Source: an uncultured Clostridia bacterium (GTDB lineage Bacteria > Bacillota > Clostridia > Oscillospirales > Ruminococcaceae). Taken from it: a DNA stretch of 64,000 bases. Shown piece after piece: positions 12,385 through 44,284 of the stretch (position 1 is the stretch's first letter; each line of letters opens with the position of its first letter). Both the position numbers and the translations under genes were made by a program. Location of the stretch: the NCBI GenBank assembly GCA_947389015.1, contig CANDVA010000003.1, forward strand, positions 124,001 through 188,000, in the 5' to 3' direction. The notes under the pieces were generated by a model. That model was not told where the DNA came from. It worked only from the letters and a program-made list of their open reading frames with translations, and did no database searches.

Positions 12385-12917
12385 ATGAGAGCCATTACAT
12401 TCACGAAAAAGCAGATCAAGCGCATTGCCGCGGTGGCGGGACTTGCAGTGGTCACGGCTGCGGTAGGTATCACCGCGGCGGTGACTTCCGTCAGCAGTCA
12501 CGCTGAGCAGCGTCAGCTGCCGATTTACAGCGTGGAGCGCGGTGATAAGAAGATCGCGCTGACGTTTGACGTTGCGTGGGAGAACTCCAACACTCAGGAG
12601 CTTATCGACATTCTCGGGGATAACAACGCCAAGGCAACGTTTTTCATTACGGGCGACTGGTGCGACCGCTATCCCGACGATGTAAAGGCGTTCTTTGATG
12701 CGGGTCACGAGATCGAGAACCATTCCGATCAGCACCCGCACGTTGAGGGCATCAACGTCAACGATCTTATCAACGACACCAAGGAATGCAGCCGAAAGAT
12801 AAAGATGATAACGGGCGAGGAGCCCGCGCTCTACCGCGCGCCATACGGCGAGTTTGACGATAACCTCATCACAACGCTTGACGGTATGGGCATGAAGGTC
12901 ATTCAGTGGGATGTTGA
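12385..12917 (+). pseudogene. PdaB-like polysaccharide deacetylase, 5' part, interrupted by the integrated element
   Basis: The first 177 codons plus two bases of a NodB-fold deacetylase. It has an N-terminal membrane anchor (about 13-35), L-P-I-Y-S-V, motif 1 T-F-D (D62), the H113-x3-H117 metal motif and R151-A-P-Y-G. Coding sequence breaks after W-D-V; the frame runs on 27 foreign codons into the element and stops at 12999. The matching remainder, including the L-F-H-N catalytic motif, lies at 44267-44747. Joined at the shared GA, the gene reads 337 codons without a break. Deacetylases of this type trim N-acetyl groups from peptidoglycan; PdaB relatives act in sporulation. GGAGGG precedes the ATG. 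This fragment alone should be inactive. Confidence 0.9.
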
Positions 12918-12936
12918 AGCGGTGGATACAGATGGG
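12898..12936 (+). other. attL: left junction of the serine-recombinase element
   Basis: Deacetylase sequence (attB left half, containing CAGTGGGATGTT) meets the GA core at 12916-12917, followed by the element half-site AGCGGTGGATACAGATGGG. That half-site is the inverted counterpart (16 of 19 positions) of the half-site at the right end of the element. Confidence 0.85.
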
Positions 12937-12951
12937 AAACGTTATACAGAG

Positions 12952-12978
12952 AGCCCGCACAAGGTGTGCGGGCTTTTG
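12952..12978 (+). terminator. Terminator just inside the left end of the element
   Basis: AGCCCGCAC / GTGCGGGCT, a 9-bp stem with a 5-nt loop followed by TTTTG. It would stop transcription from the truncated deacetylase entering the element. Confidence 0.75.
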
Positions 12979-13089
12979 TGTTGCCTCGTTAAGCCGTAAA
13001 GCTTCATTCTTATATTGGGTTATTTGATGTGGTTTTGTAAATGATATTCGACAAACCTGCAATGAAAAACCGATTCGGCAATGTGAATC

Positions 13090-13118
13090 TTGACAATTTT
13101 CAACAGTTGTGATATAAT
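13090..13118 (+). promoter_or_regulatory. Consensus promoter of the glycan operon
   Basis: Perfect TTGACA and TATAAT with 17-nt spacing. The transcript would have a leader of about 150 nt containing a GTTTTCTTT / AAAGAAAAC stem before the first gene. Confidence 0.85.
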
Positions 13119-13272
13119 ATATTTGTATTGTTTAATATGTTTGCGTGTGTGAACGCCAACATACACTTAGTTTTCTTTGCGCGGCAGCGGTAAAATCCGT
13201 AATATAAAGAAAACGCGGGAACGGAGCGGATTTAACAGGGTAAACAATAGTTAGATTGAATATATTGCATTT

Positions 13273-15258
13273 ATGAACAGAAAGTGTGATTTCGTGGAAA
13301 ACGATAAAGCCATTCGGACAAAGTCTGATAGAATACTATCTTGTCTTAACGGAAAAACATGTAAAAAGGATATAATCTGGGTGCTGCTGCTATATATAGC
13401 GGGGGTTACAGTCCATTATTTTATAGGCAGCTTTCCGAAAAAAATTACCATACTTGCTGATGAGCTATTGTATTATTCTATAGCTCAAAGCATTCAGGAC
13501 GGTAATGGCATACTGTGCCTGAACGCTCATACAGGATTTAACAAGGTGATGTATTCGTTGGTTTTGTCGCCGTTCTTCGGGATAGACGATCCCGTTTTGC
13601 GGGTGAGTATGATCACGCTGTTCAACAGCGCTCTTATTATGTCGTCGCTGTTTTTGGTGTATCTTATCGGAAAAGAGCTTGAATTAAACCGCAGAAGTAT
13701 GCTATTGGCTCTGTTGATCACGTTTTTGTGTCCCGATCTTATGTACTCAAGCTCGTTTATGTCTGAAAATCTTAACTGGCCTCTTGCGCTGTTGGCTGTT
13801 TATCTGTGGCTAAGAAGCAAAAGATGCGGACGCGTTTGGGTATATTCGGCGGCGCTGGGCTGCTTGTGTTACATAGGTTACCTTTGCAAGGATACTTTTT
13901 TGGCGTTTTTGTTAAGCTATGTGCTGTTCGAGTTGGCGTATCCGATTTTTATGTACCTGATATACCGCAAGGACGTTCCCGATAAAAAGCTCGGGGAATA
14001 TTATGCCAAGGGCTGCCTGATCGGCTGCGGAATGGCAATAGCCGTTTTTGCCGCGTGTTATGCTGCGGGAAATGTTTTGCTGTTCGGCGGAGGCGACGCA
14101 AATGCTGTCGGCGCGATATCGGTCGGGCTTAAAGTGTTTAAAAATTCCTATGCGTTTTTATATTTGCTGTATGCTTTTGCATATCACCTAGCTGCTTCAC
14201 TTATTGCGGTGCTGGTATTGCCGATCGTTTACCCGGCGGCGGGCTTTAAGTACATGAGCCGTAATACGCAGAGCGCGTTCTCCTTTTTGATGCTGTATTT
14301 GCTTATTTCCTGTGCGATTATCTCATATACCATCAGCATAAAAGAGGACATTGGTACGACTCTGCCGAGAGTCCATTTGAGATATATCGGTTTTATCCTT
14401 CTGCTGTTAATTATAGTATTTTTGAAGGTTCTGCAAGACAAAACCGAGACCGACAAAATCATCTCAAAAAATCAATGCTTCTATTCGGTGCTTTCGGCGC
14501 TTCTGGCGTGCATTGTTTTTAAGGGCTCGTATTACAATTCCATTGATCAAGCCATGCTGAACATTTATTTAATGGTTTCGGGAAAGCTTCCGCCGCTCAC
14601 ATATGTTAAAGATGATTTGGTATTATACCCGGCTTCCGCTGCGGTGTTTTTGGTTTTGGCATTGATTATATTCATTGTAGACTACTATAAAAAAAGATCC
14701 CCCAAATTATCATCGTATGTTTTTGCCGTATTTATGATGTTGGTTTGTTTCCAAAACAACAGGATGGAGATCGAGGAATATAATACCGATTATTCTGCCG
14801 ACGAAAAAATAATAAGCGATATTGTAACCGCAAATCACTATTTTGATGAAGTTAATGGTGCAAAACGAATTTTGTATATTCCGGGTGACAATCGCAGTGA
14901 TTATTCAAAAACGCTAATAACATATTTTAATCATACAAGCGAAATTTGCCATTCCAATACGGAAGACATAAGCTTACTGGCTGACGGGAACGGTGTTATA
15001 GATGTGCCGAACGCTGAATTTGAAATTGCGTTCTACGGCTTTACCTATACTTACAGCCAATTAAGCGGTTTTGATTACATTATAACGGATCGCAATTCGG
15101 ATATTGAGTTAAAGGGAATTACGCCGATCAACGAGGCGAGCGGAGAATTCTACACGCTGTATAAAAACAATGAGCCGTCAACGGTCGAGATAGCTCCAAA
15201 AGCCGGCACGGAAGAAAAATCCGATTTGAGTGCCGAGGAGAAAACAACGTCGGCATAA
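13273..15258 (+). CDS. GT-C fold membrane glycosyltransferase, copy 1
   Basis: 661 residues with about a dozen membrane segments. The first extracytoplasmic loop carries an acidic A-D-E-L-L-Y-Y motif, the place where GT39/ArnT-like enzymes keep their catalytic acid. Such proteins move sugars from lipid-phosphate donors onto glycans outside the membrane. It is closely similar to the next gene over most of its length (S-P-F-F-G-I-D-D-P-V-L-R-V and G-K-E-L-E-L-N-R are shared), showing a tandem duplication. The C-terminus ends in a Glu/Lys/Ser tail. No strong ribosome binding site is seen; a GTG at 13294 is an alternative start. The acceptor and sugar are unknown. Confidence 0.75.
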   Translation: MNRKCDFVENDKAIRTKSDRILSCLNGKTCKKDIIWVLLLYIAGVTVHYFIGSFPKKITILADELLYYSIAQSIQDGNGILCLNAHTGFNKVMYSLVLSPFFGIDDPVLRVSMITLFNSALIMSSLFLVYLIGKELELNRRSMLLALLITFLCPDLMYSSSFMSENLNWPLALLAVYLWLRSKRCGRVWVYSAALGCLCYIGYLCKDTFLAFLLSYVLFELAYPIFMYLIYRKDVPDKKLGEYYAKGCLIGCGMAIAVFAACYAAGNVLLFGGGDANAVGAISVGLKVFKNSYAFLYLLYAFAYHLAASLIAVLVLPIVYPAAGFKYMSRNTQSAFSFLMLYLLISCAIISYTISIKEDIGTTLPRVHLRYIGFILLLLIIVFLKVLQDKTETDKIISKNQCFYSVLSALLACIVFKGSYYNSIDQAMLNIYLMVSGKLPPLTYVKDDLVLYPASAAVFLVLALIIFIVDYYKKRSPKLSSYVFAVFMMLVCFQNNRMEIEEYNTDYSADEKIISDIVTANHYFDEVNGAKRILYIPGDNRSDYSKTLITYFNHTSEICHSNTEDISLLADGNGVIDVPNAEFEIAFYGFTYTYSQLSGFDYIITDRNSDIELKGITPINEASGEFYTLYKNNEPSTVEIAPKAGTEEKSDLSAEEKTTSA

Positions 15259-15298
15259 ATTACCGCATTGAAAAACAAGTCGCAAAGGATGTGCTTTT

Positions 15299-17647
15299 AT
15301 GGGAAGTGACAACACCGTTCATACAAATTCCGCAAGATCAGATAGAATAAGGTCTTGGCTTGGCGATAAAACGGGAAAATATGGCATGCTTTTGGTGTTG
15401 CTGCTGTATATTGCGAGTGTTATAGCCCACTATTTTATAGGCAGTTTCCCGAAAAGGATCACTACCTACAACGACGAGCTTTTGTATTATACCATAGCGC
15501 AGAGTATTCATGACGGCAAAGGCATTCTGTGCCTGAACGCGCAGACCTCTTATAATAAGGTTGTATATTCGTTCGTGTTATCGCCGTTCTTTGGGATAGA
15601 CGATCCCGTTTTGCGGGTGAATATGATCACGCTGTTCAACAGCGCGCTTATTATGACTTCGCTGTTTTTTGTGTATCTTATCGGCAAAGAGCTTGAATTA
15701 AACCGCGGGAGTATGCTTCTGACGCTGGCGATTGCGCTTGTATGGCCCGACTTATTGTATTCAGTCACATTTATGTCGGAAAATCTCAACTGGCCGCTGA
15801 CACTGCTGGCTGTCTTTTTATGGCTCAAGAGCAAAAAAAGCAAGCGCACGGTGGCGTATTCGATAGCTCTTGGAGCAGTGTGCTATATAGGATATCTTTG
15901 CAAGGACATTTTTCTTGCGCTGGTATTAAGCACGGTGGTGTTTGAGGCGGCGTATCCCATTGTTATGTTCTTGATAAACCGCAAGGACGACGCTTGCCAA
16001 AAGCTTGGGAAATACTATGATAAGCATAGCTTGATCGGCTGCGGCATATCAATTGCGGTTTTTGCCGTGTGCTATGTTATCGGGAGCGCATTGTTGTACA
16101 GCGGAGCCGATTCCAATGCCGTCGGAGCGATTGCGGGCGGGTTGGGGAATTTAAAAAACAACTATGCCTTTTTGTATCTGTTGTATGCCTTTGTATATTA
16201 CCTTGCCGCGTCGTTTATTGCCGTGCTGATAATGCCCATAGCGTATTCGGCGGCAAGCTTTAAGCAAATGGATAAAAACACACGGGGATTGTTTTCGTTT
16301 TTAATTTTATATTTGGTGATCTCCTGCGCAATGATCTCTTATACCATTTCCATTAAAGAGGATATCGGGCAGGTTTTCCCGAGAGGGCATTTAAGATATT
16401 TAGGGTTTATTTTGCTTTTGCTGATCGTTGTGTTTTTTAAGGTCTTACAGGACAAAAATGATACAGACGAAAAACTTTCTCGAAAACAGATAATATTTAC
16501 AATGGCGGCGGCGTTTTTTGCTTGTATGATATTCAAGGGCTTTACAGATGGCAAAGCCTCGATCGACCAATCCGTATTGAATGTTTATCACTCGGCGGCG
16601 GAGGTGCTTCAGGCGTATACCGTCAAAGGCGGTCAAAAAAAGTTTTACATTATAACGCTTGTTTCCTTTGCGGTTTTTTCGGTAATCATATTTCTCGTAT
16701 ATTATTACAAGAACAAAAGGAGATCGGGACGGTCGGCGATCTGCATTTTTTCCGTGTTTATGTTGATGCTTTGCGTGCAAAACGGCAGACTTGAAATTGC
16801 ACAATACAGATCAAGCTACGGTACCAAAAAAGAGGTAATAAGCAACGTATTGGCAATCAATCAATATCTCGGCGAGGCGAATGACGCCAAGCAAATCCTT
16901 TATATCTTTGCACGCATACACAGTGATGAGCAAAAGGTCTTTGTAACATATTTCAACCATATAAACAAGCTTTGCCAATGCTATGAGGAAACCTTACCCT
17001 CGTACACCTCCGACGGCAGAGTGATAGACGTGCCAAACACCGAATTTGAATTAAATATTTCCAACTTTTTATATACTTACAATAACTTCAGCGGATTTGA
17101 TTATATTATAACGGACTGTAACTGTGATGTGGAATTAAGGGGCGTTTCTCCCATTGACGAAGCGAGCGGTGAATTTTACACGCTTTATAAAAACGACGAT
17201 CCCGCAGCGGTTGAGATAATTCCCGATGCATACGCGGGCGAGAGGCTGGAAATAACGTTCGCGGGCGAAGGCAATAACGCGGAAAAATTCTGCAAATCGG
17301 GAATAGAAGAAACGCCGGATGGATTTCCGTGGACCGACAGAGACAGGGTATCCTTTAAAATTCCGGTATTGGGCGAATATAACAGTGTTGACGTTACCAT
17401 TAGTATTGCGGAAACCTATGGTAACACACCGCAGCAATATATCGCAGTTCAAAAAAGCGATATTTTGTCCGAGGGAACATTGACCGGCGCAGGTGAAATT
17501 AGTTTTATCGTACCGGTCAAAGACAACAAGCTGACATTTGATCTTGTGTGTCCGACTGGTATCGGGAAAAGCGATGAAAACGAGCTGCTTATAGGTTACA
17601 ACAACACAAGATATGCATTTAGGTTAAACAAAATGACCGTAGGATAA
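15299..17647 (+). CDS. GT-C fold membrane glycosyltransferase, copy 2, with extra C-terminal domain
   Basis: 782 residues, a paralogue of the preceding gene. It has the same multi-span layout and the N-D-E-L-L-Y-Y acidic loop after the first span. It differs by about 130 added C-terminal residues, beta-rich in appearance and probably outside the membrane (from about 640; contains E-I-T-F-A-G-E-G and ends R-L-N-K-M-T-V-G). The extension may bind glycan. AAAGGA lies 9 nt upstream of the ATG. Together with the DPM1-like GT2 and DUF2304 genes next to it, it suggests a lipid-linked sugar donor route (inference). Confidence 0.75.
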   Translation: MGSDNTVHTNSARSDRIRSWLGDKTGKYGMLLVLLLYIASVIAHYFIGSFPKRITTYNDELLYYTIAQSIHDGKGILCLNAQTSYNKVVYSFVLSPFFGIDDPVLRVNMITLFNSALIMTSLFFVYLIGKELELNRGSMLLTLAIALVWPDLLYSVTFMSENLNWPLTLLAVFLWLKSKKSKRTVAYSIALGAVCYIGYLCKDIFLALVLSTVVFEAAYPIVMFLINRKDDACQKLGKYYDKHSLIGCGISIAVFAVCYVIGSALLYSGADSNAVGAIAGGLGNLKNNYAFLYLLYAFVYYLAASFIAVLIMPIAYSAASFKQMDKNTRGLFSFLILYLVISCAMISYTISIKEDIGQVFPRGHLRYLGFILLLLIVVFFKVLQDKNDTDEKLSRKQIIFTMAAAFFACMIFKGFTDGKASIDQSVLNVYHSAAEVLQAYTVKGGQKKFYIITLVSFAVFSVIIFLVYYYKNKRRSGRSAICIFSVFMLMLCVQNGRLEIAQYRSSYGTKKEVISNVLAINQYLGEANDAKQILYIFARIHSDEQKVFVTYFNHINKLCQCYEETLPSYTSDGRVIDVPNTEFELNISNFLYTYNNFSGFDYIITDCNCDVELRGVSPIDEASGEFYTLYKNDDPAAVEIIPDAYAGERLEITFAGEGNNAEKFCKSGIEETPDGFPWTDRDRVSFKIPVLGEYNSVDVTISIAETYGNTPQQYIAVQKSDILSEGTLTGAGEISFIVPVKDNKLTFDLVCPTGIGKSDENELLIGYNNTRYAFRLNKMTVG

Positions 17648-17777
17648 GGAACGCGTTGAAAATGCATTTTATGAAATATCTTTACGGCGTTCATTCGACT
17701 TTGACAACGGCATAAATGCTCGAAAATCCGCACATTTCCGCTAATGAATCGGAATATAAAAGCAAAGTGAGGTTTAT

Positions 17778-18491
17778 ATGCAGAAAGTATTGATAATAAT
17801 CCCCGCCTACAACGAGGAAGCCAATATTGAAAATGTTGTGGATGACCTTATTCAAAACTATCCGCAATACGATTATGCGGTTATCAACGACTGCTCTACC
17901 GACAGCACCGAGCAAATCCTGGAGAAACGCGGATTTAATTATATTTCACTGCCGACAAATCTGGGTATTGGTGGTGCGGTTCAAAGCGGCTATTTATACG
18001 CCGCCGAAAACGATTATGACATTTCCGTTCAGCTTGACGGCGATGGTCAGCATGACCCCGCGTATATCGACAAGCTGATCAAACCCATTCTAGACGGCGA
18101 AGCCGATATTGTGATAGGTTCGCGGTTCATCGAAAAAAACGGGTTTCAATCTTCCGCGCTGCGTAGGGCAGGAATCAGAATAATTCGGGGAGTAATTAAA
18201 TTGTGCTGTGGGGTTGACATAACCGATTCGACAAGCGGTTTTCGTGCCTGCAACAAAGAAGCAGCAGACTTTTTTTCGTTGAATTACGCAAACGATTACC
18301 CCGAGCCCGAGGCTGTTGTCTCATCGGCGCTTGCCGGATTTCAAATTAAGGAGATACCCGTAATAATGCGCGAACGCGGCGGCGGAGTTTCTTCGATCAA
18401 CATAAACCGCTCGATATATTATATGATAAAAGTATCTCTTTCGCTGCTGATTTGCAGGATCGGCGCCAAAAAAAGGAGTGTTAGAAAATGA
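17778..18491 (+). CDS. GT2 glycosyltransferase, polyprenyl-phosphate sugar synthase (DPM1-like)
   Basis: 237 residues. It starts L-I-I-I-P-A-Y-N-E-E, then I-N-D-C-S-T-D, then the donor-binding Q-L-D-G-D-G-Q-H-D motif and I-V-I-G-S-R-F, all typical of dolichyl-phosphate-mannose-synthase-like enzymes. These load a sugar from a nucleotide donor onto a lipid phosphate at the inner membrane face. A GTGAGG site precedes the ATG. It overlaps the DUF2304 gene by ATGA, a frequent pairing. No C-terminal transmembrane pair is present; the neighbour may supply the membrane part. Confidence 0.85.
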   Translation: MQKVLIIIPAYNEEANIENVVDDLIQNYPQYDYAVINDCSTDSTEQILEKRGFNYISLPTNLGIGGAVQSGYLYAAENDYDISVQLDGDGQHDPAYIDKLIKPILDGEADIVIGSRFIEKNGFQSSALRRAGIRIIRGVIKLCCGVDITDSTSGFRACNKEAADFFSLNYANDYPEPEAVVSSALAGFQIKEIPVIMRERGGGVSSININRSIYYMIKVSLSLLICRIGAKKRSVRK

Positions 18492-18886
18492 AGCTTATTC
18501 TTCAGATTTTTTTGATAGTGTGTGTGTTGATTTTTTTAGCTATAATAGTACACTATCTAGCCAAGAAAAAGCTCAATCTAAGGTATTCTCTCGTTTGGCT
18601 CGGTGCGGGACTCGGTATGTTGGTTCTCGCGATATTTCCTCAGATCGTTACGGCAGTGGGCAATTTGGTCGGAATAGATACCCCCGTAAATACGGTTTTT
18701 CTTTTTGCGGGAATGTTTATGCTTCTTATTATCTTCACGCTTACCATTATTGTGTCGCATATGAACAATCAGATATACAGATTAACGCAAAAGCAGGCAA
18801 TTTTGGAAAAGCGAGTGCGGGAACTCGAAAACAGCTGTGAGTTCGGCGCTTGCGAAGATCACAAATCAAGCGAAGAAATCGGCTGA
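18488..18886 (+). CDS. DUF2304 domain membrane protein
   Basis: 132 residues with three hydrophobic segments, a K-K-K-L-N-L-R-Y-S-L-V-W-L motif between the first two, and a C-terminal coiled coil (Q-K-Q-A-I-L-E-K-R-V-R-E-L). This matches DUF2304, a small membrane protein usually encoded directly after DPM1-like GT2 genes. It probably anchors or assists that enzyme. Start and upstream stop overlap. Confidence 0.85.
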   Translation: MKLILQIFLIVCVLIFLAIIVHYLAKKKLNLRYSLVWLGAGLGMLVLAIFPQIVTAVGNLVGIDTPVNTVFLFAGMFMLLIIFTLTIIVSHMNNQIYRLTQKQAILEKRVRELENSCEFGACEDHKSSEEIG

Positions 18887-19411
18887 TACGCTTAGAGCAT
18901 GTATTCATTGAATATTGCACACGTCTTTTCGGCAAATTCTCCCGATAACTGCGTTAAAATTTCTTGATGGGCGACAGCCCGCCAGCGAAATTTTTCCTTG
19001 TTATCGGAAAAATTGTGCTCGAAAATCCGCGCGCAAATCCAATGAGTACACGCTCTTATTTTGGCAAATGGACGCAGGCATCCTGCCCACAAAAATTCGG
19101 CGGCATCTCAAAAAGCCGACTGAAATGCCGCGTTTTGAACGCAGTCGGACTATTCAAGCGCTATGCAGTGTGTTTCGTGCGCGGTGAAAATTGCGGCAAT
19201 ATGTCGCAATTTTTTATTTGTAGGTAACACCGTACAATGACAAAAAACTCGGCATTGCTTGGGGAAGCATAACTTTTGTATATTTCTTGCAACGGCTCAT
19301 CGCTCAGAACGGACAGGTTTATTTGTTTGTTCATATTTTTACCATAACTTATTTTTCAAATTGGAGCAAGCGCTTTGTGCGGCGTTTTCTTTATTTTTAT
19401 CTGACATATCA
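18887..19411. repeat. Gene-free stretch with nested hairpins, possible decayed repeat
   Basis: No gene with a ribosome binding site is seen. At 18942-19007 CCGATAAC and GTTATCGG enclose AAAATTTC / GAAATTTT and a GGGC-GACA-GCCC tip. A second folded stretch (about 19070-19160) contains GCGGCATCT ... AAATGCCGC and repeated AGTCGG words. The leftward frame at 18892-19092 looks like the tail of a decayed coding repeat rather than a working gene. A genome-wide copy search would tell whether this is a dispersed element. Confidence 0.45.
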
Positions 19412-19440
19412 TTGACAATTATAAGGAATTGTGGTATAAT
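19412..19440 (+). promoter_or_regulatory. Consensus promoter inside the glycan operon
   Basis: Perfect TTGACA and TATAAT with 17-nt spacing, about 75 nt ahead of the GT2 gene; it can drive the downstream genes independently. Confidence 0.85.
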
Positions 19441-19514
19441 AAAACAGTATACAGCTTTACGACAAAATCGCCGCGGCTTGCGTTTGCCCTACAAATTTGC
19501 ATGGGGGTGTGTCT

Positions 19515-20549
19515 GTGAACAGAGGGATAACCGTTGTTATAACCACATATAATCTGGCAGACATGATCGGAAAGTGTCTTGAAGAGCTCCTTTGCCAAAC
19601 ATTTGAGGATTTCGACGTTTTGGTTGTAGACGATTGTTCCGAGGACAGCACTTGTTCGGTCGTTAAAGCTTATGAAAAGAAATTCGGCAACAGGCTGACC
19701 GTAATTTTTTGTGAGAGCAATAACGGTACCCCGGGAATGGTCAGAAACATTGCGTTAAATTCGGGACTTATCTCGGGAAAATACATACTCCTTCTCGACG
19801 GAGACGACGACATCGAAGTCAATATGCTCGAAAGATTGTACAACGCGGCTTGCGCACAAAATTCCGACGTTGTTTGCTGCGGCTACGATCGCGTTATTGC
19901 TTCAACCGGCAGCGTTTGTTCTGTCGAAATGAATAAGTTTTATGTAAAGAGCATCACGCCGGAATGCAATACCGAATACATTGCGCTTGTTAATGGCGCG
20001 CTTTGGAATAAGCTCATAAGAACCGAATGTGTTAAAGACATTCACTTCGCCCCGATCAAAATCGGCGAGGACGCATGCTTTCAGCTTGAATTGTTTGAAA
20101 AAGCAAAAAAAATTGTTTTCATAGACGATATTTTGATTCATTATAATGTGTATGAGAAGTCACTGATATCTAACGTGGATATAGACGAAGTTGTTAAGTT
20201 GTCCGAAAAGCTGCGCGATATATACGCGGGCTGCGGCAGCGAGACATACAGATCCGCGATAATACTGTCGGCATTTATTCATGTGGGGATATCGGCGTGC
20301 GTGAGAGTTTACCAAAGTAAACGCTCCAACGTGAACAGTCATATTGCGTGGACTAAAAAATACCTCGACGATAATTTTCCTAAGTGGTTTAAATCCGATT
20401 GCCTGAGGATGAGATTTTTAAGGAAACTGGGCGTCAAGGGCTTGGCAATAAAAACTTGCACATTTCTGTACCGAACAAAAATGTTTAAGCTTTTCTTGGT
20501 TATGTACACGTTTATGATAAACAAATTGGGAATTGATATCAAATGGTAA
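19515..20549 (+). CDS. GT2 family glycosyltransferase
   Basis: 344 residues. The N-terminal GT-A domain has V-V-I-T-T-Y-N-L-A, V-V-D-D-C-S-E-D-S and the metal-binding L-L-L-D-G-D-D-D, as in inverting GT2 enzymes that build surface glycans in the cytoplasm. G-E-D-A-C-F in the middle is the usual acidic ED motif near the acceptor site. The C-terminal quarter is basic and may bind the membrane. GTG with GGGGG upstream is preferred to a TTG six codons earlier. The end overlaps the flippase start by 7 nt. Confidence 0.85.
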   Translation: MNRGITVVITTYNLADMIGKCLEELLCQTFEDFDVLVVDDCSEDSTCSVVKAYEKKFGNRLTVIFCESNNGTPGMVRNIALNSGLISGKYILLLDGDDDIEVNMLERLYNAACAQNSDVVCCGYDRVIASTGSVCSVEMNKFYVKSITPECNTEYIALVNGALWNKLIRTECVKDIHFAPIKIGEDACFQLELFEKAKKIVFIDDILIHYNVYEKSLISNVDIDEVVKLSEKLRDIYAGCGSETYRSAIILSAFIHVGISACVRVYQSKRSNVNSHIAWTKKYLDDNFPKWFKSDCLRMRFLRKLGVKGLAIKTCTFLYRTKMFKLFLVMYTFMINKLGIDIKW

Positions 20550-24942: not shown

Positions 24943-24951
24943 GGTCAGGCA

Positions 24952-25875: not shown

Positions 25876-25891
25876 AAATTTGGAGGCATTT

Positions 25892-26653: not shown

Positions 26654-26740
26654 GATTTTTTGACCTTGTGCGCACCGAAATGGCAATGGCGCAGTTATTA
26701 TAAGCCGGCAGATGTATCGATTTTATGGAGGAAAACAGTT

Positions 26741-28552: not shown

Positions 28553-28567
28553 TCTAAAGGAGCGTAT

Positions 28568-31234: not shown

Positions 31235-31279
31235 TCTGCTGCAATACTCAATAAATTCGATTATGATACGGAGAAAAAA

Positions 31280-32647: not shown

Positions 32648-32649
32648 TT

Positions 32650-35439: not shown

Positions 35440-35447
35440 AGGTGAAT

Positions 35448-35486
35448 ATGTCCGCTCGACTTTGCGGTCTTGCCGAAAAAGAATGA
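35448..35486 (+). CDS. Possible 12-codon leader peptide before trkH
   Basis: An ATG with GAGGTGAAT just upstream opens a frame M-S-A-R-L-C-G-L-A-E-K-E whose stop (TGA) overlaps the trkH ATG. TrkH itself has only a weak ribosome binding site, so reinitiation from this short frame may set TrkH level. It may equally be a chance frame. Confidence 0.3.
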   Translation: MSARLCGLAEKE

Positions 35487-36928
35487 ATAAGACTTTAGTT
35501 TTCCATTATTTGTCTAAAATGACTCTTGCAGGCTCGGCGCTGTTTTTGCTGCCTGCGGTCGTAAGCCTTTGCTATGGCGAATTCGACACCGTGCTGACAT
35601 TTGTGCTCGTCGGCGCGGGGCTTGCCGTGTTGTCTCTGCCGATGGCGTTTGTCAAGCCCAAGTCAAAGGATATGTACACCAAAGAGGGCTTGATAATAGT
35701 CGCTATGCTTTGGATAGCGTTTCCGCTGGCAGGTGCTGTGCCGTTTTACATAAGCGGGGAGATACCGCGTTTTATCGACGCTGTTTTTGAAAGCGTCTCG
35801 GGATTTACCACTACGGGTTCGACGATACTTGCGGACGTGGAGAGCCTGTCGCACGGTATGCTTTTCTGGCGCAGTTTTACTCACTGGATTGGCGGTATGG
35901 GAATACTGGTGTTCGCGTTGGCTGTTTTCCCGTCGTCAAAGGACTCGCTGTACCTGATGAGGGCGGAGTGTCCGGGTCCGCAGGTCGGGAAATTCGTCCC
36001 GAAGGGCAAGAACACGGCGATGTATATGTACGCTATGTACGGCGTGCTCACCGTAGTGACCGTAATATTGCTGTGCGCGGGAGGAATGCCGTTTTTCGAC
36101 AGCGTATGCCACGCGATGGGCACGGCGGGCACGGGCGGCTTCGGTATCAAGAACGCTGGTGTGGCGTTCTATAACTCCGCGTATATCGACGGCGTTATCA
36201 CGGTGATGATGATACTGTTCGGCGTGAATTTCAACATATTCTATTTCCTGCTGATAAGGCGCTTTAAGGACGTCGGCAAGAACCTCGAGCTGAGAGTATA
36301 CTTTATAATATTAGCCGCGGCGACGGTGTTGATAGGCGCTAATATTTATCCGATATACAAATCCGTCGGCGAGAGCTTCAGATACGCGGTTTTTCAGGTC
36401 GCTTCAATAATGACGACAACGGGCTTTGCCACCGCGGACTATAATTTGTGGCCCGCGTTCTCGCAGATGATACTGGTAATGCTTATGCTTGTCGGAGCGT
36501 GCGCGGGGTCTACGGGCGGAGGATTTAAAGTCCAGCGACTGATAATCATCTTCAAGAATGTCGGGAAGTATTTCAAGAAGCTGCTTCACCCGAAATCGGT
36601 AAGCCTTGTGACGAGCGAGGACAAGGCAATGGATACCGATACGGTTCACGGAGTGCATTGCTATCTCGGGATATATATGTTCCTGATGCTGGCGTCTATG
36701 CTGCTGCTCTCGATTGATAATCAGGATTTCGCGACTTCATTCACTGCTGTGGCGGCGTGCTTCAACAATATAGGTCCCGGAATAAGCAAGGTGGGACCGA
36801 TGGAGAATTTCTCGTTCTTTTCGGATTTCTCAAAATGCGTTCTGTCGCTGGATATGCTTTTCGGAAGACTGGAATGTCTGCCTATGATGATGCTGTTCGT
36901 TCCCGCGGTATGGAAGAAAAAGTTCTGA
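35483..36928 (+). CDS. trkH: Trk potassium uptake channel TrkH
   Basis: 481 residues from the ATG at 35483. Multiple membrane segments and the repeated selectivity-loop motifs of Trk/Ktr channels are seen: S-G-F-T-T-T-G-S-T, T-G-G-F-G near the second, T-T-T-G-F-A-T-A-D in the third and F-N-N-I-G-P-G in the fourth. H-W-I-G-G-M-G-I-L and G-S-T-G-G-G-F-K are conserved. It forms the K+ pathway with TrkA. The track's longer reading has no better start, and M-N-K fits the family N-terminus. Confidence 0.93.
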   Translation: MNKTLVFHYLSKMTLAGSALFLLPAVVSLCYGEFDTVLTFVLVGAGLAVLSLPMAFVKPKSKDMYTKEGLIIVAMLWIAFPLAGAVPFYISGEIPRFIDAVFESVSGFTTTGSTILADVESLSHGMLFWRSFTHWIGGMGILVFALAVFPSSKDSLYLMRAECPGPQVGKFVPKGKNTAMYMYAMYGVLTVVTVILLCAGGMPFFDSVCHAMGTAGTGGFGIKNAGVAFYNSAYIDGVITVMMILFGVNFNIFYFLLIRRFKDVGKNLELRVYFIILAAATVLIGANIYPIYKSVGESFRYAVFQVASIMTTTGFATADYNLWPAFSQMILVMLMLVGACAGSTGGGFKVQRLIIIFKNVGKYFKKLLHPKSVSLVTSEDKAMDTDTVHGVHCYLGIYMFLMLASMLLLSIDNQDFATSFTAVAACFNNIGPGISKVGPMENFSFFSDFSKCVLSLDMLFGRLECLPMMMLFVPAVWKKKF

Positions 36929-37066: not shown

Positions 37067-39148
37067 TTAAGTTTTCCGGTCGAGAACGTCTGCGATAAGC
37101 GACAGCAGATATTCCATATTGAGGGGTTTTGGCGCGTGTGCGTCCATTCCCGATTCGATCGCCTTTTTTTTGTCCTCGGCGTATGTATTGGCAGAGAGAG
37201 CTATTATCGGTATATCCGCCCGCGCCCCGTTAAGCGCGCGTATTGCGCGGGTTGCTTCGTAGCCGTTCATGCGCGGCATCTGTATATCCATTAGGATCAA
37301 GTTGAAATAGTCCGCGTCGGCTTCCTTAACCATTTCCACGGCAACGTCTCCATCGGACGCGGTCTCAACGATAAAGCCTTCCACGGTGAGCAGCTCCTCG
37401 GCGATCTCGCAGTTGATATCGTTATCCTCCACGAGCAATATGCGCATACCTTCAAGCGTTACCGGCTCGTTCGATTTTACGATAGCGGGGCTTTCGGCGT
37501 TTTCAAGCTGCTTTAGAGTGACCGTTACGGTAAAGCGGCTGCCTTCGTTTTGACGGCTCATCACGGATATTTCGCCGCCCATGAGGTCGACGAGATTTTT
37601 CACCACTGTCATTCCCAGACCGCTGCCGAGAACTCCGCTTTGAGTGGTGTTGTTTTCCCTCGCAAACGGCTCGAACAGGCGATCCATAAATTCCTCGGAA
37701 ATTCCGCTGCCCGTATCTTCCACGGTGAAAACATATTTCCCGTAGCCGTCGGTATGCTGCTGTTCCTCGGCGCGGAGAATAACGTATCCGCCGTTTTCGG
37801 TATACTTTGCGGCGTTGTCGAGAAGCTGTGCAAGCACCTCGGTAAGACGAGTGAAATCAGCGAGCACGTTTGGGTGAACGATCCGAGACCTGTCGATTTT
37901 AAAGTGCAGATCCTTGGCGTTCATTTCGGGGAGCACAGTCTTTTCGGTCTCATCGAGCATATCGGCGAGACTGCCCTCGATCTCCGCGAGCACCGCTTTT
38001 CCCGACTCCATACGAGTGACCTCGAGCGCCTCGCTTACGATAGTAAGCAGCTGATTTCCCGAAGCGCGTATTTTTTCAAGGTATTCCTCGGTTTTCTCAC
38101 GGTCGCCGACGTGCATTTTAATAAGGTCGGCAAAGCCGAGAATGGCGTTGAGCGGGGTCTTGATATCGTGCGACATATTCGCGAGGAACGTACTTTTCGC
38201 GATAGCCGCGGTCTGCGCCTGGCGGAGCGTATCGTTCAGGAACTTGCGGCGGTCGGACTGCTCTGTGATATCCTTTACGATAATAAGCGCGCCCGTTGTA
38301 CCGTCTGCGACGCTTTTTCCAAGCAGTACCACATAGTGCAGCAGATGAGTTTTTCCGAGCTTGTCCGCGGCATGTCTGTCGTAGACTTGCTCAAGTTCGC
38401 CGTTTTCACAGCATTTCATCAAGCGTCCGAGATCGAAAAACTCTAAGTAGTCGTGCCGGTCGGCAGGAGATATGAGCTCGGAGGCTATTTTGATGAAATC
38501 GGTGAAACGAGTGCCGTCGAGACTGCCCTGCGAGCGTATTATATCGGACACGGGGAAGATATTGTTTTCGCCTGCCTGGGTGACGGCTGTGACGAACCTG
38601 TTTTCGGATAAGCTAACCTCGTAAAAGAACAGCGCGTCGTAAAGTATCGCCTTGCGGTATTGGCTCTCCCGCGCGGATATCCGAAGAAGGGTCTCGTTTG
38701 CGCGTTCAAGGCGCTCCATGCGCTTTTTCATAAGCTCGGTGTTGTCGACGATAAAAACGTAAAATATATCCCCGAACGCCTCAGTATGCGTAAAGCGTCC
38801 ATAGTCGGCTATCCAGCGCGTGGAACCGTCCTTCTGCTTTATACGGTATTCCACATAGTCGGTTTTTTCGACGCTGTTGGATATCTGTTCGGCAATGCTT
38901 TTTTCAACGTTATCTATATCGTCCGGGTGAACCATTCCGCGGAATGAATTCCCCGTAAGCTCGACGAATTCTTTTAAGGTATCACAGCCGAAAATTTTCA
39001 GGGCCGCCCTGTTGAGGTGAAGTATTTCCTCGCTCTCGTCTGCGCGGTACGCGAAAAATCCCCCGGGCATCTGTTCCACAAAATCGCGGAAAAAGTCGTC
39101 CGAATTTTCGCTCAGGGCTTTCATAAATTTTTTTAAGCTGTTTTCCAT
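37067..39148 (-). CDS. Hybrid sensor histidine kinase with PAS and receiver domains
   Basis: 693 residues without membrane spans. A PAS domain (about 20-150, with the M-V-H-P-D-D motif) and a second PAS-like region (about 165-300) come first. They are followed by the HisKA dimer (F-L-A-N-M-S-H-D-I-K-T-P-L-N-A, His near 325) and HATPase (Q-L-L-D-N-A-A-K-Y, D-T-G-S-G-I, G-S-G-L-G-M). A C-terminal receiver (V-E-D-N-D-I-N, phospho-Asp in L-M-D-I-Q-M-P, K-P) completes it. It is a cytoplasmic phosphorelay kinase with no output partner visible. It is transcribed against its neighbours. The signal is unknown. Confidence 0.92.
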   Translation of the reverse strand: MENSLKKFMKALSENSDDFFRDFVEQMPGGFFAYRADESEEILHLNRAALKIFGCDTLKEFVELTGNSFRGMVHPDDIDNVEKSIAEQISNSVEKTDYVEYRIKQKDGSTRWIADYGRFTHTEAFGDIFYVFIVDNTELMKKRMERLERANETLLRISARESQYRKAILYDALFFYEVSLSENRFVTAVTQAGENNIFPVSDIIRSQGSLDGTRFTDFIKIASELISPADRHDYLEFFDLGRLMKCCENGELEQVYDRHAADKLGKTHLLHYVVLLGKSVADGTTGALIIVKDITEQSDRRKFLNDTLRQAQTAAIAKSTFLANMSHDIKTPLNAILGFADLIKMHVGDREKTEEYLEKIRASGNQLLTIVSEALEVTRMESGKAVLAEIEGSLADMLDETEKTVLPEMNAKDLHFKIDRSRIVHPNVLADFTRLTEVLAQLLDNAAKYTENGGYVILRAEEQQHTDGYGKYVFTVEDTGSGISEEFMDRLFEPFARENNTTQSGVLGSGLGMTVVKNLVDLMGGEISVMSRQNEGSRFTVTVTLKQLENAESPAIVKSNEPVTLEGMRILLVEDNDINCEIAEELLTVEGFIVETASDGDVAVEMVKEADADYFNLILMDIQMPRMNGYEATRAIRALNGARADIPIIALSANTYAEDKKKAIESGMDAHAPKPLNMEYLLSLIADVLDRKT

Positions 39149-39273
39149 AAACCCTTCCTCCGAAGATCAATTTGAATGTTGGGGATTGTTTATATTTTAC
39201 AACATATTTATAAATTTTGCAAGTGGTTTTTATAACTTTGTGGAATTTATTGGGAATTTGTATAGGAGCAAAT

Positions 39274-39302
39274 TTGATTTTTTCGGGAAAATATTGTATA
39301 AT
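39274..39302 (+). promoter_or_regulatory. Sigma-A type promoter for the aldo/keto reductase
   Basis: TTGATT and TATAAT with 17-nt spacing, 52 nt before the start codon. Confidence 0.75.
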
Positions 39303-39354
39303 AACAATGAGGCGCTGTCAATGCGCGGATAAATATACGATTTGGAGGTCAAAT

Positions 39355-40299
39355 ATGAACGAAAAAACACCAAAGCTTGCTCTCGGAGCATGGTCATGGG
39401 GTACGGGAAACGCGGGCGGAGATGCGGTTTTCGGTAATCATCTTTCGGCGGAGGATTTAAAACCCGTATTCGCCAAGGCAATGGAGCACGGACTAAACCT
39501 CTGGGATACCGCGCCCGTATACGGCGACGGCAGCTCGGAGACGATACTCGGCGGCTTTATCCGTGACATGGACAGGCGGGATATCATCATTTCCACCAAG
39601 TTTACGCCGCATATCGCGGGTGCTTCTCCGAGCGCGGCGCGAGAGATGCTGGAGGGCAGTCTCGGACGCCTGAACACGGATTATGTCGACATTTACTGGA
39701 TACACAATCCCAACGACGTAGAGCGCTTTACTCCCATGCTCATACCGCTTGCGAAGGAGGGGCTTATCAAGTCGATAGGCGTGTCCAACCACAACCTCGC
39801 CGAGATAAAGCGCGTACGGGAGATACTTGGCACGGAGGGTCTGCGGCTTTCCGCGGTACAGAACCATTACAGCCTGCTTCACCGTTCGTCCGAGCGTGCG
39901 GGTATCCTCGACTATTGCAGGGAAAATAAGATCACGTTCTTTTCGTATATGGTGCTGGAGCAGGGCGCGCTTACGGGAAAATTCGATCTTGCCCACCCAT
40001 TCCCCGAGGGCAGCTCCCGCGCTAAAACTTATAACGGTATGCTGACTGAGTTGGAGACTCTGATCGAGGAAATGCACCGTATCGGAGAACGTCACGGCGC
40101 AAGCCCCGCGCAGATAGCTGTCGCATGGGCGAGGTCAAAGGGAACGCTTCCGATAATCGGAGTGACAAAGGTAGGTCAGGCGGAGGAAGCGGCAAAGACG
40201 GCGGAGATGGTTCTCGCCGCCGAGGAAATATCTTCTCTCGAGGAGCTGGCCGACCAAACGGGAGTAAGCACCCTGCGCGGCTGGGAAAGAGAGATGTAA
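39355..40299 (+). CDS. Aldo/keto reductase
   Basis: 314 residues of the AKR barrel. D-T-A-P-V-Y-G carries the catalytic Asp and Tyr, S-T-K-F-T-P the Lys, and I-H-N-P-N-D replaces the usual active-site His context. S-N-H-N, S-A-V-Q-N-H-Y-S-L-L and the C-terminal G-V-T-K-V-G-Q-A-E-E cofactor loop are present. These NADPH enzymes reduce aldehydes and ketones; the substrate is unknown. GGAGG lies 8 nt before the ATG, so the long upstream frame is not used. Confidence 0.88.
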   Translation: MNEKTPKLALGAWSWGTGNAGGDAVFGNHLSAEDLKPVFAKAMEHGLNLWDTAPVYGDGSSETILGGFIRDMDRRDIIISTKFTPHIAGASPSAAREMLEGSLGRLNTDYVDIYWIHNPNDVERFTPMLIPLAKEGLIKSIGVSNHNLAEIKRVREILGTEGLRLSAVQNHYSLLHRSSERAGILDYCRENKITFFSYMVLEQGALTGKFDLAHPFPEGSSRAKTYNGMLTELETLIEEMHRIGERHGASPAQIAVAWARSKGTLPIIGVTKVGQAEEAAKTAEMVLAAEEISSLEELADQTGVSTLRGWEREM

Positions 40300-40524: not shown

Positions 40525-41751
40525 ATGGCTTTGGGAAATGTTATTGTCGGGCAGTCGGGCGGACCTACCTCGGTCATCAATTCAAGCCTTGTGGGTGTGT
40601 TCAAGACCGCAAAGGACGCGGGCTGTCCTCATGTTTACGGTATGCGCAACGGTATTGAGGGGCTTTTGCAGGAGCATTATGTCGACCTTGCGGAATATGT
40701 GCGCAGCGATCTCGATATCGAGCTGCTGAAGCGCACGCCGTCGTCGTTTCTCGGAACCTGCCGTTACAAGCTCCCCGACTTCGCAAAGGACGAGGATACT
40801 TATAAGAAGATATTTGCTATCCTTAAGAAAATGGATATCAAGCACTTTTTCTATATCGGCGGCAACGATTCAATGGATACTATCGACAAGCTGTCGAAAT
40901 ACGCCGATATCATAAAGAGCGACATTACGTTTATCGGCGTTCCCAAGACTATCGATAACGATCTTGCGATGACCGATCACACTCCGGGCTACGGCAGCGC
41001 GGCGAAGTATATTGCATCGGCAATGAAAGAGATAATCCGCGACGCGAACACCTACCCGAACGAGTCGGTCAACATTGTCGAAATAATGGGACGTGACGCG
41101 GGCTGGCTCACCTGCGCGGCTACGCTGTCGCGTTCGGAGGACTGTGCGGGTCCCGATATAATCTGTCTGCCCGAGACGGTTTTCGATTACGATAACTTTA
41201 TCAATAAGATCAACGAGGCGCGTTCGCGGAAAAAGGTCATTACGATCGCAGTATCCGAGGGTATCAAGACCGCCGACGGAAAGTACGTCTGTGAGGCGAA
41301 CAGAAAGGCTATGCGCGAGGACGCGTTCGGTCATAAGGCGCTGGGCGGTACCGCGCTTTATCTCGCGGACTTTATCGGCGCGGAGCTTGGAATAAAGAAC
41401 AGAGGTATCGTGTTCTCGACATTACAGCGGTGCGCGTCGCATATCGTTTCCCGCCGTGATATCACCGAGGCGTTCACCGCGGGTGCTGACGGAGTTCAGC
41501 TCGCGCTGAACGGCGAAACGGGAAAGATGATCGTTTTCGAGAGAATATCCAATAATCCTTATCAGTTAAAGACAGGATCCTGCCCCGCTTCCGCGGTTGC
41601 CAACGTTGAAAAGCTTGTCCCCAAGGAATGGATAATCAACGACGGAACCTATGTTTCAAAGGAGTTCTTTGAGTATGCACGTCCACTGATAATCGGCGAG
41701 CTTTCGCCGTTTATGGTAGACGGTCTGCCCAGGCACCTGTTTATTGATTGA
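40525..41751 (+). CDS. Pyrophosphate-dependent 6-phosphofructokinase
   Basis: 408 residues of the PFK fold. G-Q-S-G-G-P-T-S at the N-terminus, G-G-N-D-S-M in the phosphate site and P-K-T-I-D-N-D in the catalytic loop. The Asp in G-G-N-D-S and the Lys in P-K-T-I-D-N-D mark PPi-dependent enzymes (ATP-PFKs carry Gly at both places). M-G-R-D-A-G-W binds fructose-6-phosphate. It runs glycolysis reversibly with pyrophosphate, common in anaerobic Clostridia. It is unexpected inside an integrated element. AGGAGG precedes the ATG. Confidence 0.93.
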   Translation: MALGNVIVGQSGGPTSVINSSLVGVFKTAKDAGCPHVYGMRNGIEGLLQEHYVDLAEYVRSDLDIELLKRTPSSFLGTCRYKLPDFAKDEDTYKKIFAILKKMDIKHFFYIGGNDSMDTIDKLSKYADIIKSDITFIGVPKTIDNDLAMTDHTPGYGSAAKYIASAMKEIIRDANTYPNESVNIVEIMGRDAGWLTCAATLSRSEDCAGPDIICLPETVFDYDNFINKINEARSRKKVITIAVSEGIKTADGKYVCEANRKAMREDAFGHKALGGTALYLADFIGAELGIKNRGIVFSTLQRCASHIVSRRDITEAFTAGADGVQLALNGETGKMIVFERISNNPYQLKTGSCPASAVANVEKLVPKEWIINDGTYVSKEFFEYARPLIIGELSPFMVDGLPRHLFID

Positions 41752-41807: not shown

Positions 41808-41881
41808 CGGTCAAGAAATAATAAAAAAAACGCTCTGATTGTTCAGATTGTTTTTTTACAGGAAACCAAAAGTTTACTTTC

Positions 41882-41910: not shown

Positions 41911-41960
41911 TATCTACGGGCAGAGAAATTTGCAATTTTAATCCCGGAGGATATATAATT

Positions 41961-42161: not shown

Positions 42162-42529
42162 AAGATTGTACAACTGCATAGCAATTGCCGCTTTAGGGGA
42201 AGCGGTTTTTGTGTTTTGGGGTAAAAAATGTGCGAAAGGACCGAAAAGCTGCGAAGCAGTATGTATAAAGAAACCCGTTTGGAGCTCTGTGTAATATCAT
42301 ATAATTGCGATGGATTTTACGATCCATCGCATTTTTTTTGAGAGGTAAAACTGCTAACTCCGCCTCTTTTAGGAGAGGGCATTGGAATGTCGTCGGAATA
42401 ATCTAAGACCGTAGTTAATATAAATATCATAGCTGCCGTTTAAAGGGGCTTGGCGTTCACAATTGCTATATAACGCAAGAGCAATAAAAATGTTCGCATT
42501 GAATCGCTTGATCGGAGGGGGACTGTCCT
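42162..42529 (+). other. Intergenic region with two terminators, upstream of the recombinase operon
   Basis: A CCGCTT / AAGCGG hairpin with TTTTT at 42188-42210 ends the small gene. A much stronger one, TGCGATGGAT / ATCCATCGCA followed by eight T residues, is at 42306-42339; what it terminates is unclear. Between 42340 and 42529 must lie the recombinase promoter, but I see no pair of boxes with good spacing. Confidence 0.7.
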
Positions 42530-42670
42530 ATGGCGTCTTATCAAGTTGTACATACCGTAAATTCACCGAGCACAAATAAAGATGATGTTAAGCTCGCAGC
42601 TGCTCGTGCGTTATACGCCGAGCTGCTGAAATATTACAAAACAAAAGCGGCGCAGGCAAGATCCGCCTGA
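42530..42670 (+). CDS. 46-residue protein upstream of the serine recombinase
   Basis: A short gene with a strong CGGAGGGGG ribosome binding site. The protein starts M-A-S-Y-Q-V-V-H-T-V-N-S-P-S-T-N, then forms one long basic-amphipathic helix (V-K-L-A-A-A-R-A-L-Y-A-E-L-L-K-Y-Y-K-T-K). It ends 23 nt before the recombinase start, so the two are one operon. I do not recognise a family. Small basic partners encoded by serine integrase genes can act as directionality factors, which makes this a candidate for controlling excision (inference only). Confidence 0.65.
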   Translation: MASYQVVHTVNSPSTNKDDVKLAAARALYAELLKYYKTKAAQARSA

Positions 42671-42693
42671 CCGCCGATAAGGGAAGTGAAAAT

Positions 42694-44178
42694 ATGACGG
42701 CGATCTATGCGCGGCAGAGCGTTGACAAAAAAGACAGCATCTCGATCGAGACGCAGATAGAGATGTGCAGGCGGTATTGTACGGACGAATACCGCGTTTA
42801 TTCAGATAAGGGCTGGAGCGGCAAAAACCTCGACCGCCCCGAATTTCAACGGCTGCTTTCCGATATCGAGAACGGGCAGGTGGACAAGCTTGTAGTATAC
42901 AAGCTCGACCGTATCAGCCGTTCGCTGAACGACTTCTCCAACCTTATGGAGACGTTCAAACAGTACGGCGTGGAATTCGCGTCGACGGTGGAAACGTTTG
43001 ACACGTCAACGCCGATCGGACGAGCAATGCTGGGAATAATTATGGTGTTTGCGGAGCTGGAGCGCGAGAATATCCTTCTGCGCGTCAAGGACAACTATTA
43101 CGCGCGCGGCGAAAAGGGTCTGTATCTCGGCGGAGTTCCCGTGTACGGATTCGACAAGATCCCCGCAAAACTTAACGGCATAAAGACCTCGGTGCTGATA
43201 CCCAATAACGATCTTGCGGCGGTCAAGTACATTTTCTCCGCGTATCGTGAAAGTGGCAGCTCGCTCGGGCAGATAGTCAAGGCTCTGAACGAGCGCGGCG
43301 TGCCGTCTCCCGCGGGAAAGCTCTGGGACAGCAGCAAGCTGAGCCGTCTTCTGCGTTCGCCTACATATGTAATGGCGGACGTTGAGGTATATCGTTATTT
43401 CAAGGAAAAGGGTGCGAAAATCTCCAATCCCGTTGAGGATTTCACGGGGGAGCGCGGCTGTTTTCTTTACGGAAAGCGCGAGGCTAACGAAAGAAAATAC
43501 ACCGACGTTCACGACCATGTGTTGTCGCTGGGGCTTCACGACGGGGTGATATCGCCCGAGCTGTGGCTTGACGTTCAGCGAAAGCTCGACGGAAATACAC
43601 AGATAAAAAAGGGGAAAAGCGGCTCGTATTCGTGGCTCACGGGGCTTATCAAGTGTGGCAAATGCGGTTATGCAATGCGCGTTCAGGGCGGCAAATATTT
43701 TTATTGTACGGGCAAGGCTAATCACGGAGCGTGCGAGGGCGTTGACGGAAAACCGCGTATCGCGGACGTTGAATTCGCGGTCTATGCCGAGCTGAAACGT
43801 AAATTCGACGAGATACGCGATATCGTTATGGAGGAGAAAAAAAACGTCTCGTCGCCGAAAGCGAACAAGCTGAAAATGCGCTTGGAGGCGTTGAATGTAC
43901 AAATCGATAATCTTGTTGACAAGATAACTGAGACCACCGAGGCAATTGGCGCGGTGCTTGAAAAGAAGCTCGAAGCGCTTATTGCGGAACGCGCGGAAAT
44001 ACAGTCGGAGCTGGACAAACTTGGGGACGCCAAAACAAAGCTTGCTTACTCGGACGTTATTCCGCTGATCGACGAGTTTTCGGAAATGCCGCTTGAGACA
44101 AAGCGCGAAATAGCGAGGCAGTTTATCGTGAAGATCCTGCTGTGGGAGGATAAGATCGAGATCGTGTGGAAATTCTGA
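42694..44178 (+). CDS. Large serine recombinase (integrase of the element)
   Basis: 494 residues. The N-terminal resolvase domain has the Y-A-R-Q-S9 nucleophile motif, Y-K-L-D-R-I-S-R and F-A-E-L-E-R-E-N-I. A recombinase domain (about 150-270) and a zinc ribbon (C-G-K-C-G-Y-A-M, then F-Y-C-T-G-x9-C) follow. A long coiled coil (about 370-445) and a short C-terminus complete the TndX/phiC31-type plan. It would cut attP and attB at the GA core and rejoin them without host factors. GGGAAGTGA precedes the ATG. The stop lies 67 nt from the right half-site, the usual int-attP arrangement. Confidence 0.93.
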   Translation: MTAIYARQSVDKKDSISIETQIEMCRRYCTDEYRVYSDKGWSGKNLDRPEFQRLLSDIENGQVDKLVVYKLDRISRSLNDFSNLMETFKQYGVEFASTVETFDTSTPIGRAMLGIIMVFAELERENILLRVKDNYYARGEKGLYLGGVPVYGFDKIPAKLNGIKTSVLIPNNDLAAVKYIFSAYRESGSSLGQIVKALNERGVPSPAGKLWDSSKLSRLLRSPTYVMADVEVYRYFKEKGAKISNPVEDFTGERGCFLYGKREANERKYTDVHDHVLSLGLHDGVISPELWLDVQRKLDGNTQIKKGKSGSYSWLTGLIKCGKCGYAMRVQGGKYFYCTGKANHGACEGVDGKPRIADVEFAVYAELKRKFDEIRDIVMEEKKNVSSPKANKLKMRLEALNVQIDNLVDKITETTEAIGAVLEKKLEALIAERAEIQSELDKLGDAKTKLAYSDVIPLIDEFSEMPLETKREIARQFIVKILLWEDKIEIVWKF

Positions 44179-44180
44179 AA

Positions 44181-44213
44181 AAACCGAAATGCGTACGTCG
44201 CATTTCGGTTTTT
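44181..44213 (+). terminator. Terminator of the recombinase gene
   Basis: AAACCGAAATGCG / CGCATTTCGGTTT, 13-bp perfect stem with a 5-nt loop, then TTTT. Confidence 0.9.
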
Positions 44214-44245
44214 GTTTTTGATAAATGCGGCATAACCAAGCGCCT

Positions 44246-44284
44246 CCCATCCGTATCCAACGCCGATAGTATAGACTGGAAAAA
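44246..44284 (+). other. attR: right junction of the serine-recombinase element
   Basis: The element half-site CCCATCCGTATCCAACGCC meets the GA core (44265-44266), followed by host sequence TAGTATAGACTGG that resumes the deacetylase. Placed before the left half-site it forms a 19+2+19 nt near-palindrome. Confidence 0.85.

Follow-up and report, generated by a model that had tools for sequence, protein, structure and literature searches.

We analysed a 64,000-nt stretch of DNA (hereafter the window) from an uncultured Clostridia bacterium of the Ruminococcaceae (GenBank assembly GCA_947389015.1, contig CANDVA010000003.1, positions 124,001 to 188,000, forward strand), in which a gene for a PdaB-like deacetylase lies in two parts with a 31,349-bp island between them. 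The island carries a large serine recombinase (LSR) gene near its right end, preceded by a small open reading frame (ORF) that is a candidate recombination directionality factor (RDF). The features that define this arrangement, in window coordinates, are:

12308..12333, + strand: sigma-E-like promoter of the deacetylase gene, GTCATATT-N14-CATA
12385..12915, + strand: 5′ part of the PdaB-like deacetylase gene, 177 codons
12916..12917, + strand: left GA core (attL)
12918..12936, + strand: left island half-site
42395..42424, + strand: weak sigma-E-like site upstream of the small ORF and LSR (score 9.1, shuffle p 0.043)
42530..42670, + strand: 46-aa ORF, candidate RDF
42694..44178, + strand: LSR, 494 aa, with Resolvase, Recombinase and zinc-ribbon domains
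44179..44213, + strand: terminator-like stem-loop after the LSR
44246..44264, + strand: right island half-site
44265..44266, + strand: right GA core (attR)
44267..44747, + strand: 3′ part of the deacetylase gene

Fusing the host flanks through a single GA gives a stop-free frame of 337 aa. There are 177 whole deacetylase codons before the GA core, where deacetylase homology ends, and the interrupted 5′ frame runs on for 27 extra codons to a stop ending at 12999. Compared as inverted copies, the two ends of the island agree at 16 of 19 positions; for one fixed pair, such agreement has a chance probability of about 1e-7. A sequence-only reading had proposed that the gene halts at codon 177 and resumes in frame 31,349 bp later, and that the LSR ends 67 nt from the right half-site; the coordinates and the joined frame agree with both (LSR stop at 44178, half-site start at 44246). 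It had also pointed to a weak dyad at attB (CAGT-8-GA-8-ACTG). The dyad exists, but its 4-bp arms are incompletely conserved in relatives and we gave it no weight as evidence. A tRNA-Arg (CCT) gene lies on the minus strand at 45008-45084, 260 bp beyond the deacetylase gene; it is not the attachment site.

The decisive support for the boundaries is comparative. The joined protein was searched in 100 genomes, the window's own (G000) included, of which 43 belong to the same genus. Among these 43 the deacetylase gene is intact in 33, split at the same residue in eight (G000, G003, G004, G014, G015, G025, G029 and G031), and missing from two (G002 and G007, each with no more than a 27-29% match). 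All eight left and all eight right junctions have the identical GA core with related half-sites, which supports the earlier claims of a shared GA and of inverted half-sites that join into an attP. All 33 intact genes read straight through, as had been expected of attB, and their core position holds GA, which begins an Asp codon of the motif WDxDSxDW. Relatives sharing the gene order but without any intact deacetylase had been named as a refuting observation; the outcome favours the earlier reading, given the 33 intact genes, several of which adjoin recR as in the window. The insert measures 9.5 kb in G029, 4.4 kb in G031 and 24.8 kb in G025, while the two gene halves lie on separate contigs in G003, G004, G014 and G015. 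Beyond the 3′ part, G029 keeps the gene order of the window, whose ORFs at 45339 and 47085 are both matched there, and a chimeric assembly is therefore unlikely.

The seven other split genomes, and no further ones of the genus, have an LSR with 74-88% identity to that of the island; the G003 copy is partial and lies at a contig end. The best LSR match in the 35 unsplit same-genus genomes is 42%, and among 396 family genomes, for which three candidates per genome were scored, the best match outside the genus is 44%. Among the matches listed, those in phage and plasmid records fall below 60% identity (best 33% and 39%), the plasmid search covering up to 5000 records. LSR position and orientation differ between islands, and a homologue of the small ORF (40-50 aa) lies directly upstream of the LSR in 7/7 split genomes with DNA there, i.e. 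all but G003. The small ORF alignment has eight invariant positions. It is fast-evolving, with a G000-G029 identity of 59% against 87% for the LSR and an omega (nonsynonymous to synonymous rate ratio) of about 0.3, and AlphaFold models the protein as one helix (mean predicted local distance difference test score 77, predicted template modelling score 0.40). Its position, conservation and size make it a candidate RDF; published sizes are 58 aa for SprB of SP-beta (PMC4191935) and 72 and 53 aa for a compared pair of RDFs (PMC10747680).

Two observations on other LSRs may be added. (i) LSRs of ~42% identity in G038 and G039 (L054, L055) are directly preceded by another, unlike small ORF (~62 aa), and LSRs of this family may thus generally come with a small partner gene. 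(ii) The window genome has 18 matches to the LSR at E <= 0.001, several of them in tandem on small contigs (C41, C46); this genome therefore holds many serine recombinases.

Both halves of the split gene show purifying selection: omega between G000 and G029 is 0.029 for the 5′ part and 0.092 for the 3′ part. The other split-split pairs range from 0.044 to 0.182 and the computable intact-intact pairs from 0.022 to 0.154, with synonymous divergence (dS) close to saturation in several pairs. The frames are open over the compared parts in 8/8 split genomes (the 5′ part of G014 is cut by a contig end). In neutral simulations at the observed dS, about 10 stops are expected per half and 0/2000 runs were stop-free; at dS 0.5 the 3′ half gained a mean of 7 stops, with 2/2000 stop-free runs (the 5′ simulation used the untrimmed 230-codon frame). 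G000, G029 and G014 share trkA-trkH within the insert. For the G000-G029 pair the LSR has a dS of 0.93, four nearby host genes 0.48-0.60. The LSR was therefore not recently exchanged between these two genomes, and recent spread of one element was rejected for this pair.

The split gene thus appears to be in use, which would require precise removal of the island at some stage. The constrained halves in the long-split G000 and G029 would be accounted for most simply by precise LSR-driven excision, and so well preserved a broken gene points to exact removal of the island at times when the deacetylase is needed. Halves that are both open and constrained could also encode separate proteins that assemble without any excision. 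We regard this as very improbable, as the break falls inside WDxDSxDW, a motif kept in 33/33 intact relatives, the 3′ part has no evident signal sequence, and the frame upstream of it is island DNA that differs between genomes.

The reading we prefer, with a probability of roughly 65%, is that of a non-phage LSR island at a fixed GA in a PdaB-like gene, whose precise excision restores the gene, most likely with mother-cell sigma-E timing. The LSR would have inserted the island by attP × attB recombination; the LSR and the upstream small protein, its probable RDF, would then recombine attL with attR, releasing a circular island and precisely restoring the 337-codon gene. The most likely setting is the sporulating mother cell, with sigma-E active and the deacetylase itself being transcribed; since the mother cell dies, the dividing lineage would keep the island. 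The boundaries, the common site, the confinement of close LSRs to split genomes, the conserved small ORF and the selection on both halves in long-split lineages are observed; we infer all three of excision, the role of the small ORF as RDF, and the sporulation timing. The PdaB-like (sporulation-type) target, the same site split in eight species with different cargo, the small ORF and the selected halves together favour programmed precise excision over plain inactivation.

The remaining genes of the island are, in order:

13273..33720, + strand: low-GC cargo comprising glycosyltransferases, GDP-mannose dehydratase, a DegT aminotransferase, thiamine pyrophosphate (TPP)/transketolase enzymes, an FkbM methyltransferase and three proteins without a Pfam family
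34084..36928, + strand: trkA-trkH, potassium uptake, common to the G014 and G029 islands
37067..39148, − strand: hybrid histidine kinase
39217..40299, + strand: aldo/keto reductase
40525..41751, + strand: pyrophosphate (PPi)-dependent phosphofructokinase (PFK), common to the G029 island

A Pfam scan of 23 island proteins, without some short ORFs (at 18.9-19.6 kb and around 42.0 kb), gave one LSR, the three family-less proteins, and otherwise polysaccharide and nucleotide-sugar enzymes, TPP/transketolase enzymes, the FkbM methyltransferase, TrkA-TrkH, the kinase, the reductase, the PFK and a few others. A prophage reading was not supported, with no phage structural, packaging or lysis genes among these 23 proteins and none of the corresponding PHROGs categories for 10 island ORFs; nor was an integrative conjugative element, with no relaxase or type IV secretion genes among the 23. 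The only trkA of the window genome, at E <= 1e-50, is the one inside the island. The island PFK is the sole copy of the PPi type; the idea that it is the only PFK of the genome was weakened by two distant PFKs elsewhere, of ~30% identity. Within the polysaccharide cargo, a TPP enzyme, an HMGL-like enzyme and a transketolase split in two ORFs are consecutive (26660-31234), which suggests an unusual sugar or acid branch.

In the other islands 20 proteins were scanned, including one encoded outside the split gene and another on a contig whose side is uncertain. Their cargo varies: a two-component system in G031, cell-wall enzymes in G025, polysaccharide-type genes in G004 and G014, trkA-trkH in G014 and G029, and an ISL3 transposase in G015. 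Some unsplit genomes have genes of the kind carried by the window island. In G020, comEC-recR-trkA-trkH-PFK stand in a row (L160, C14), where no deacetylase half, LSR or small ORF was found, and the intact deacetylase gene is on a different contig (L159, C6); here the cargo seems to have stayed while the deacetylase gene moved. In G030 (L157) and G038 (L158), trkA-trkH lie within 5-8 kb of the intact deacetylase gene, so the trk genes of the island may be former neighbours.

An rpoB tree was made from 39 of the 43 same-genus genomes (without G006, G013, G019 and G037). G014, G000, G029 and the unsplit G020 form one supported clade on it, while the remaining split genomes are dispersed with intact relatives nearby; the tree needs at least seven changes. 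The LSR tree has one main division in common with it, but G004 is placed differently: its LSR groups with those of G031 and G003, its rpoB with those of G015, G012 and G021.

Staphylococcal cassette chromosomes are serine recombinase islands with a single fixed chromosomal site and exchangeable cargo; they insert at the end of their target gene without splitting it. Our island shares the fixed site and the exchangeable cargo, and CcrB is the best NCBIfam match of its LSR. The LSR is, however, far below the Ccr cut-offs, with 152.6 bits for CcrB and 113.4 for CcrC (cut-offs 900) and 61.5 for CcrA (cut-off 700). An ordinary LSR-borne, cassette-chromosome-like island may still be considered. Its attB would be a conserved catalytic motif in a dispensable gene, which it would simply inactivate, and the halves would look intact because the insertions are recent and independent. 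The scatter of split genomes on the rpoB tree, several with close intact relatives, speaks for this, as do the swapped cargo and the two of 43 genomes that lack the gene. We consider it unlikely as a general account, with G000 and G029 having island genes in common, LSRs diverged like host genes, and constrained halves; it may hold for split genomes that have no long-split partner, e.g. G031 and G003.

The timing proposed in our preferred reading draws on the promoters and on sporulation markers. The deacetylase promoter pattern GTCATATT-N14-CATA, scored at >=10/12 positions, was found in 38 of the 40 genomes examined versus 0/54 control upstreams (those of mechanical ORFs >=200 aa in the window). 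It fails in G040 and G033, the latter perhaps for a misplaced start, and the count is without G014, which has no gene upstream on its contig. The pattern equals ATA-N16-CATA and resembles the spoIIID sigma-E promoter of Clostridioides difficile, given as ATA-N16-CATATATA in PMC3789822, which also describes three polysaccharide deacetylase genes in that species with positive control by sigma-E and negative control by SpoIIID. In Bacillus subtilis, SpoIIID bound upstream of ybaN (PMC517825, in excerpt), and the family name of the best PdaB match joins ybaN and pdaB. With a matrix made from 33 of the gene promoters, 6/7 LSR-operon upstreams score 8.0-20.6 (shuffle p 0.003-0.043) against a control maximum of 6.3 (n=54). 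Spo0A is above its cut-off in 37 of the 43 same-genus genomes, and SpoIIID-type matches occur in 38, nine of them above cut-off, while among 14 controls B. subtilis alone matches. The hexamer TTGTCC is present in 26/33 gene upstreams and 2/7 LSR-operon upstreams, and reversed in a third; we did not rely on its presumed likeness to the SpoIIID consensus. Sporulation is our best guess for the timing of excision.

Excision might also be real and non-developmental: growing cells would switch the deacetylase on and off, at random or under stress, and the island would re-integrate. LSR systems can be reversible with an RDF, and the promoter evidence for the LSR operon is uneven. A free yin element was present at all time points in Clostridium botulinum cultures, according to the excerpts of PMC10747680. 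Such a switch strikes us as improbable: the target is PdaB-like, a gene with a conserved sigma-E-like promoter, and the island carries the only trkA of the genome, whose loss would be costly in growing cells.

Several findings weigh against excision during sporulation or narrow its reach. PdaB is the best family for the joined protein, with a score of 216 bits under a cut-off of 237.4. The LSR-operon site fails in G029 (p 0.53), and that of the window is a weak one, separated from the start codon by 135 nt. In the window genome the strict promoter pattern has one match, at the deacetylase gene, and a looser pattern has none; the pattern is therefore tied to no known sporulation gene there, and as a regulon marker it failed. 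Sigma-E in this genome is 4 bits below cut-off, and 29 of the 38 SpoIIID-type matches are below theirs, with none at all in the split G004. The omega of 0.182 belongs to the 3′ part in the G029-G014 pair and exceeds the intact-intact range, and an old insertion is argued for G000, G029 and G014 only. In G015 the intact LSR (L079, 1846-3333) lies ~4 kb upstream of the split gene and not inside it; a second copy (L063/L070), broken into two frames, is on another contig. Finally, no free form of the element was found in virus collections, and no free attP-like site in viral contigs.

Three features that mark sporulation gene-intervening elements were found here: a site-specific recombinase, an intact gene at the same site in relatives, and both halves under selection. 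The sporulation role of the target gene and the RDF are putative. In its working the island would resemble skin, SP-beta/spsM, gin/gerE and yin/yabG, with regulated excision predicted here. Closest is gin/gerE of Bacillus cereus ATCC10987, as it is non-phage: it is 28.6 kb long and free of phage genes, splits a coding region, has a serine recombinase and an att site with an inverted repeat around a central dinucleotide, and is driven to excise by a small extra factor, GirX, with which our candidate small ORF may be compared (PMC5595907). It differs in its gene and phylum branch, its three recombinase genes and its experimentally shown excision (PMC5595907), whereas the site described here is used in eight species with swapped cargo. 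In SP-beta/spsM of B. subtilis, the LSR SprA and the small RDF SprB restore a split sporulation gene, but SP-beta is an active phage (PMC4191935) and SprA is distant from the island LSR (PDB match of 37.5 bits over the N-terminal part). The skin element of C. difficile also pairs an LSR with a small RDF, whose gene has a sigma-E promoter and depends on SpoIIID; it is prophage-like and lies in sigK, and mother-cell control is shown there and inferred here (PMC5025042). In yin/yabG of C. botulinum, a clostridial sporulation gene again hosts an element with an LSR and a candidate RDF, but that element is prophage-like and known from one strain (PMC10747680), ours non-phage and in eight species. 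Searches of open-licence PMC texts gave no report of such an element inside a pdaB-type gene, and passages of PMC4191935 and PMC10747680 do not mention a deacetylase.

If our reading is true, the few known gene-intervening elements would gain a new target, a spore-type deacetylase, a new lineage, an uncultured gut genus, and a non-phage form that swaps its cargo. It is possible, though we hold this more tentatively than the excision itself, that one gut genus has a family of cassette-like islands for which a PdaB-like spore gene is both docking site and switch: soma-versus-germline elimination with swappable cargo and a recombinase operon under the promoter type of the interrupted gene, the island being kept in the dividing lineage and discarded only in the doomed mother cell. 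The window island would be kept in that lineage because it holds the only trkA and the only PPi-type PFK. With eight split species and their intact relatives, one could study how a mobile island comes to be coupled to development, and look for developmental excision of DNA in gut samples enriched for spores. A further gain would be an LSR family whose natural att sites, from eight genomes, have one core in common, together with a candidate RDF.

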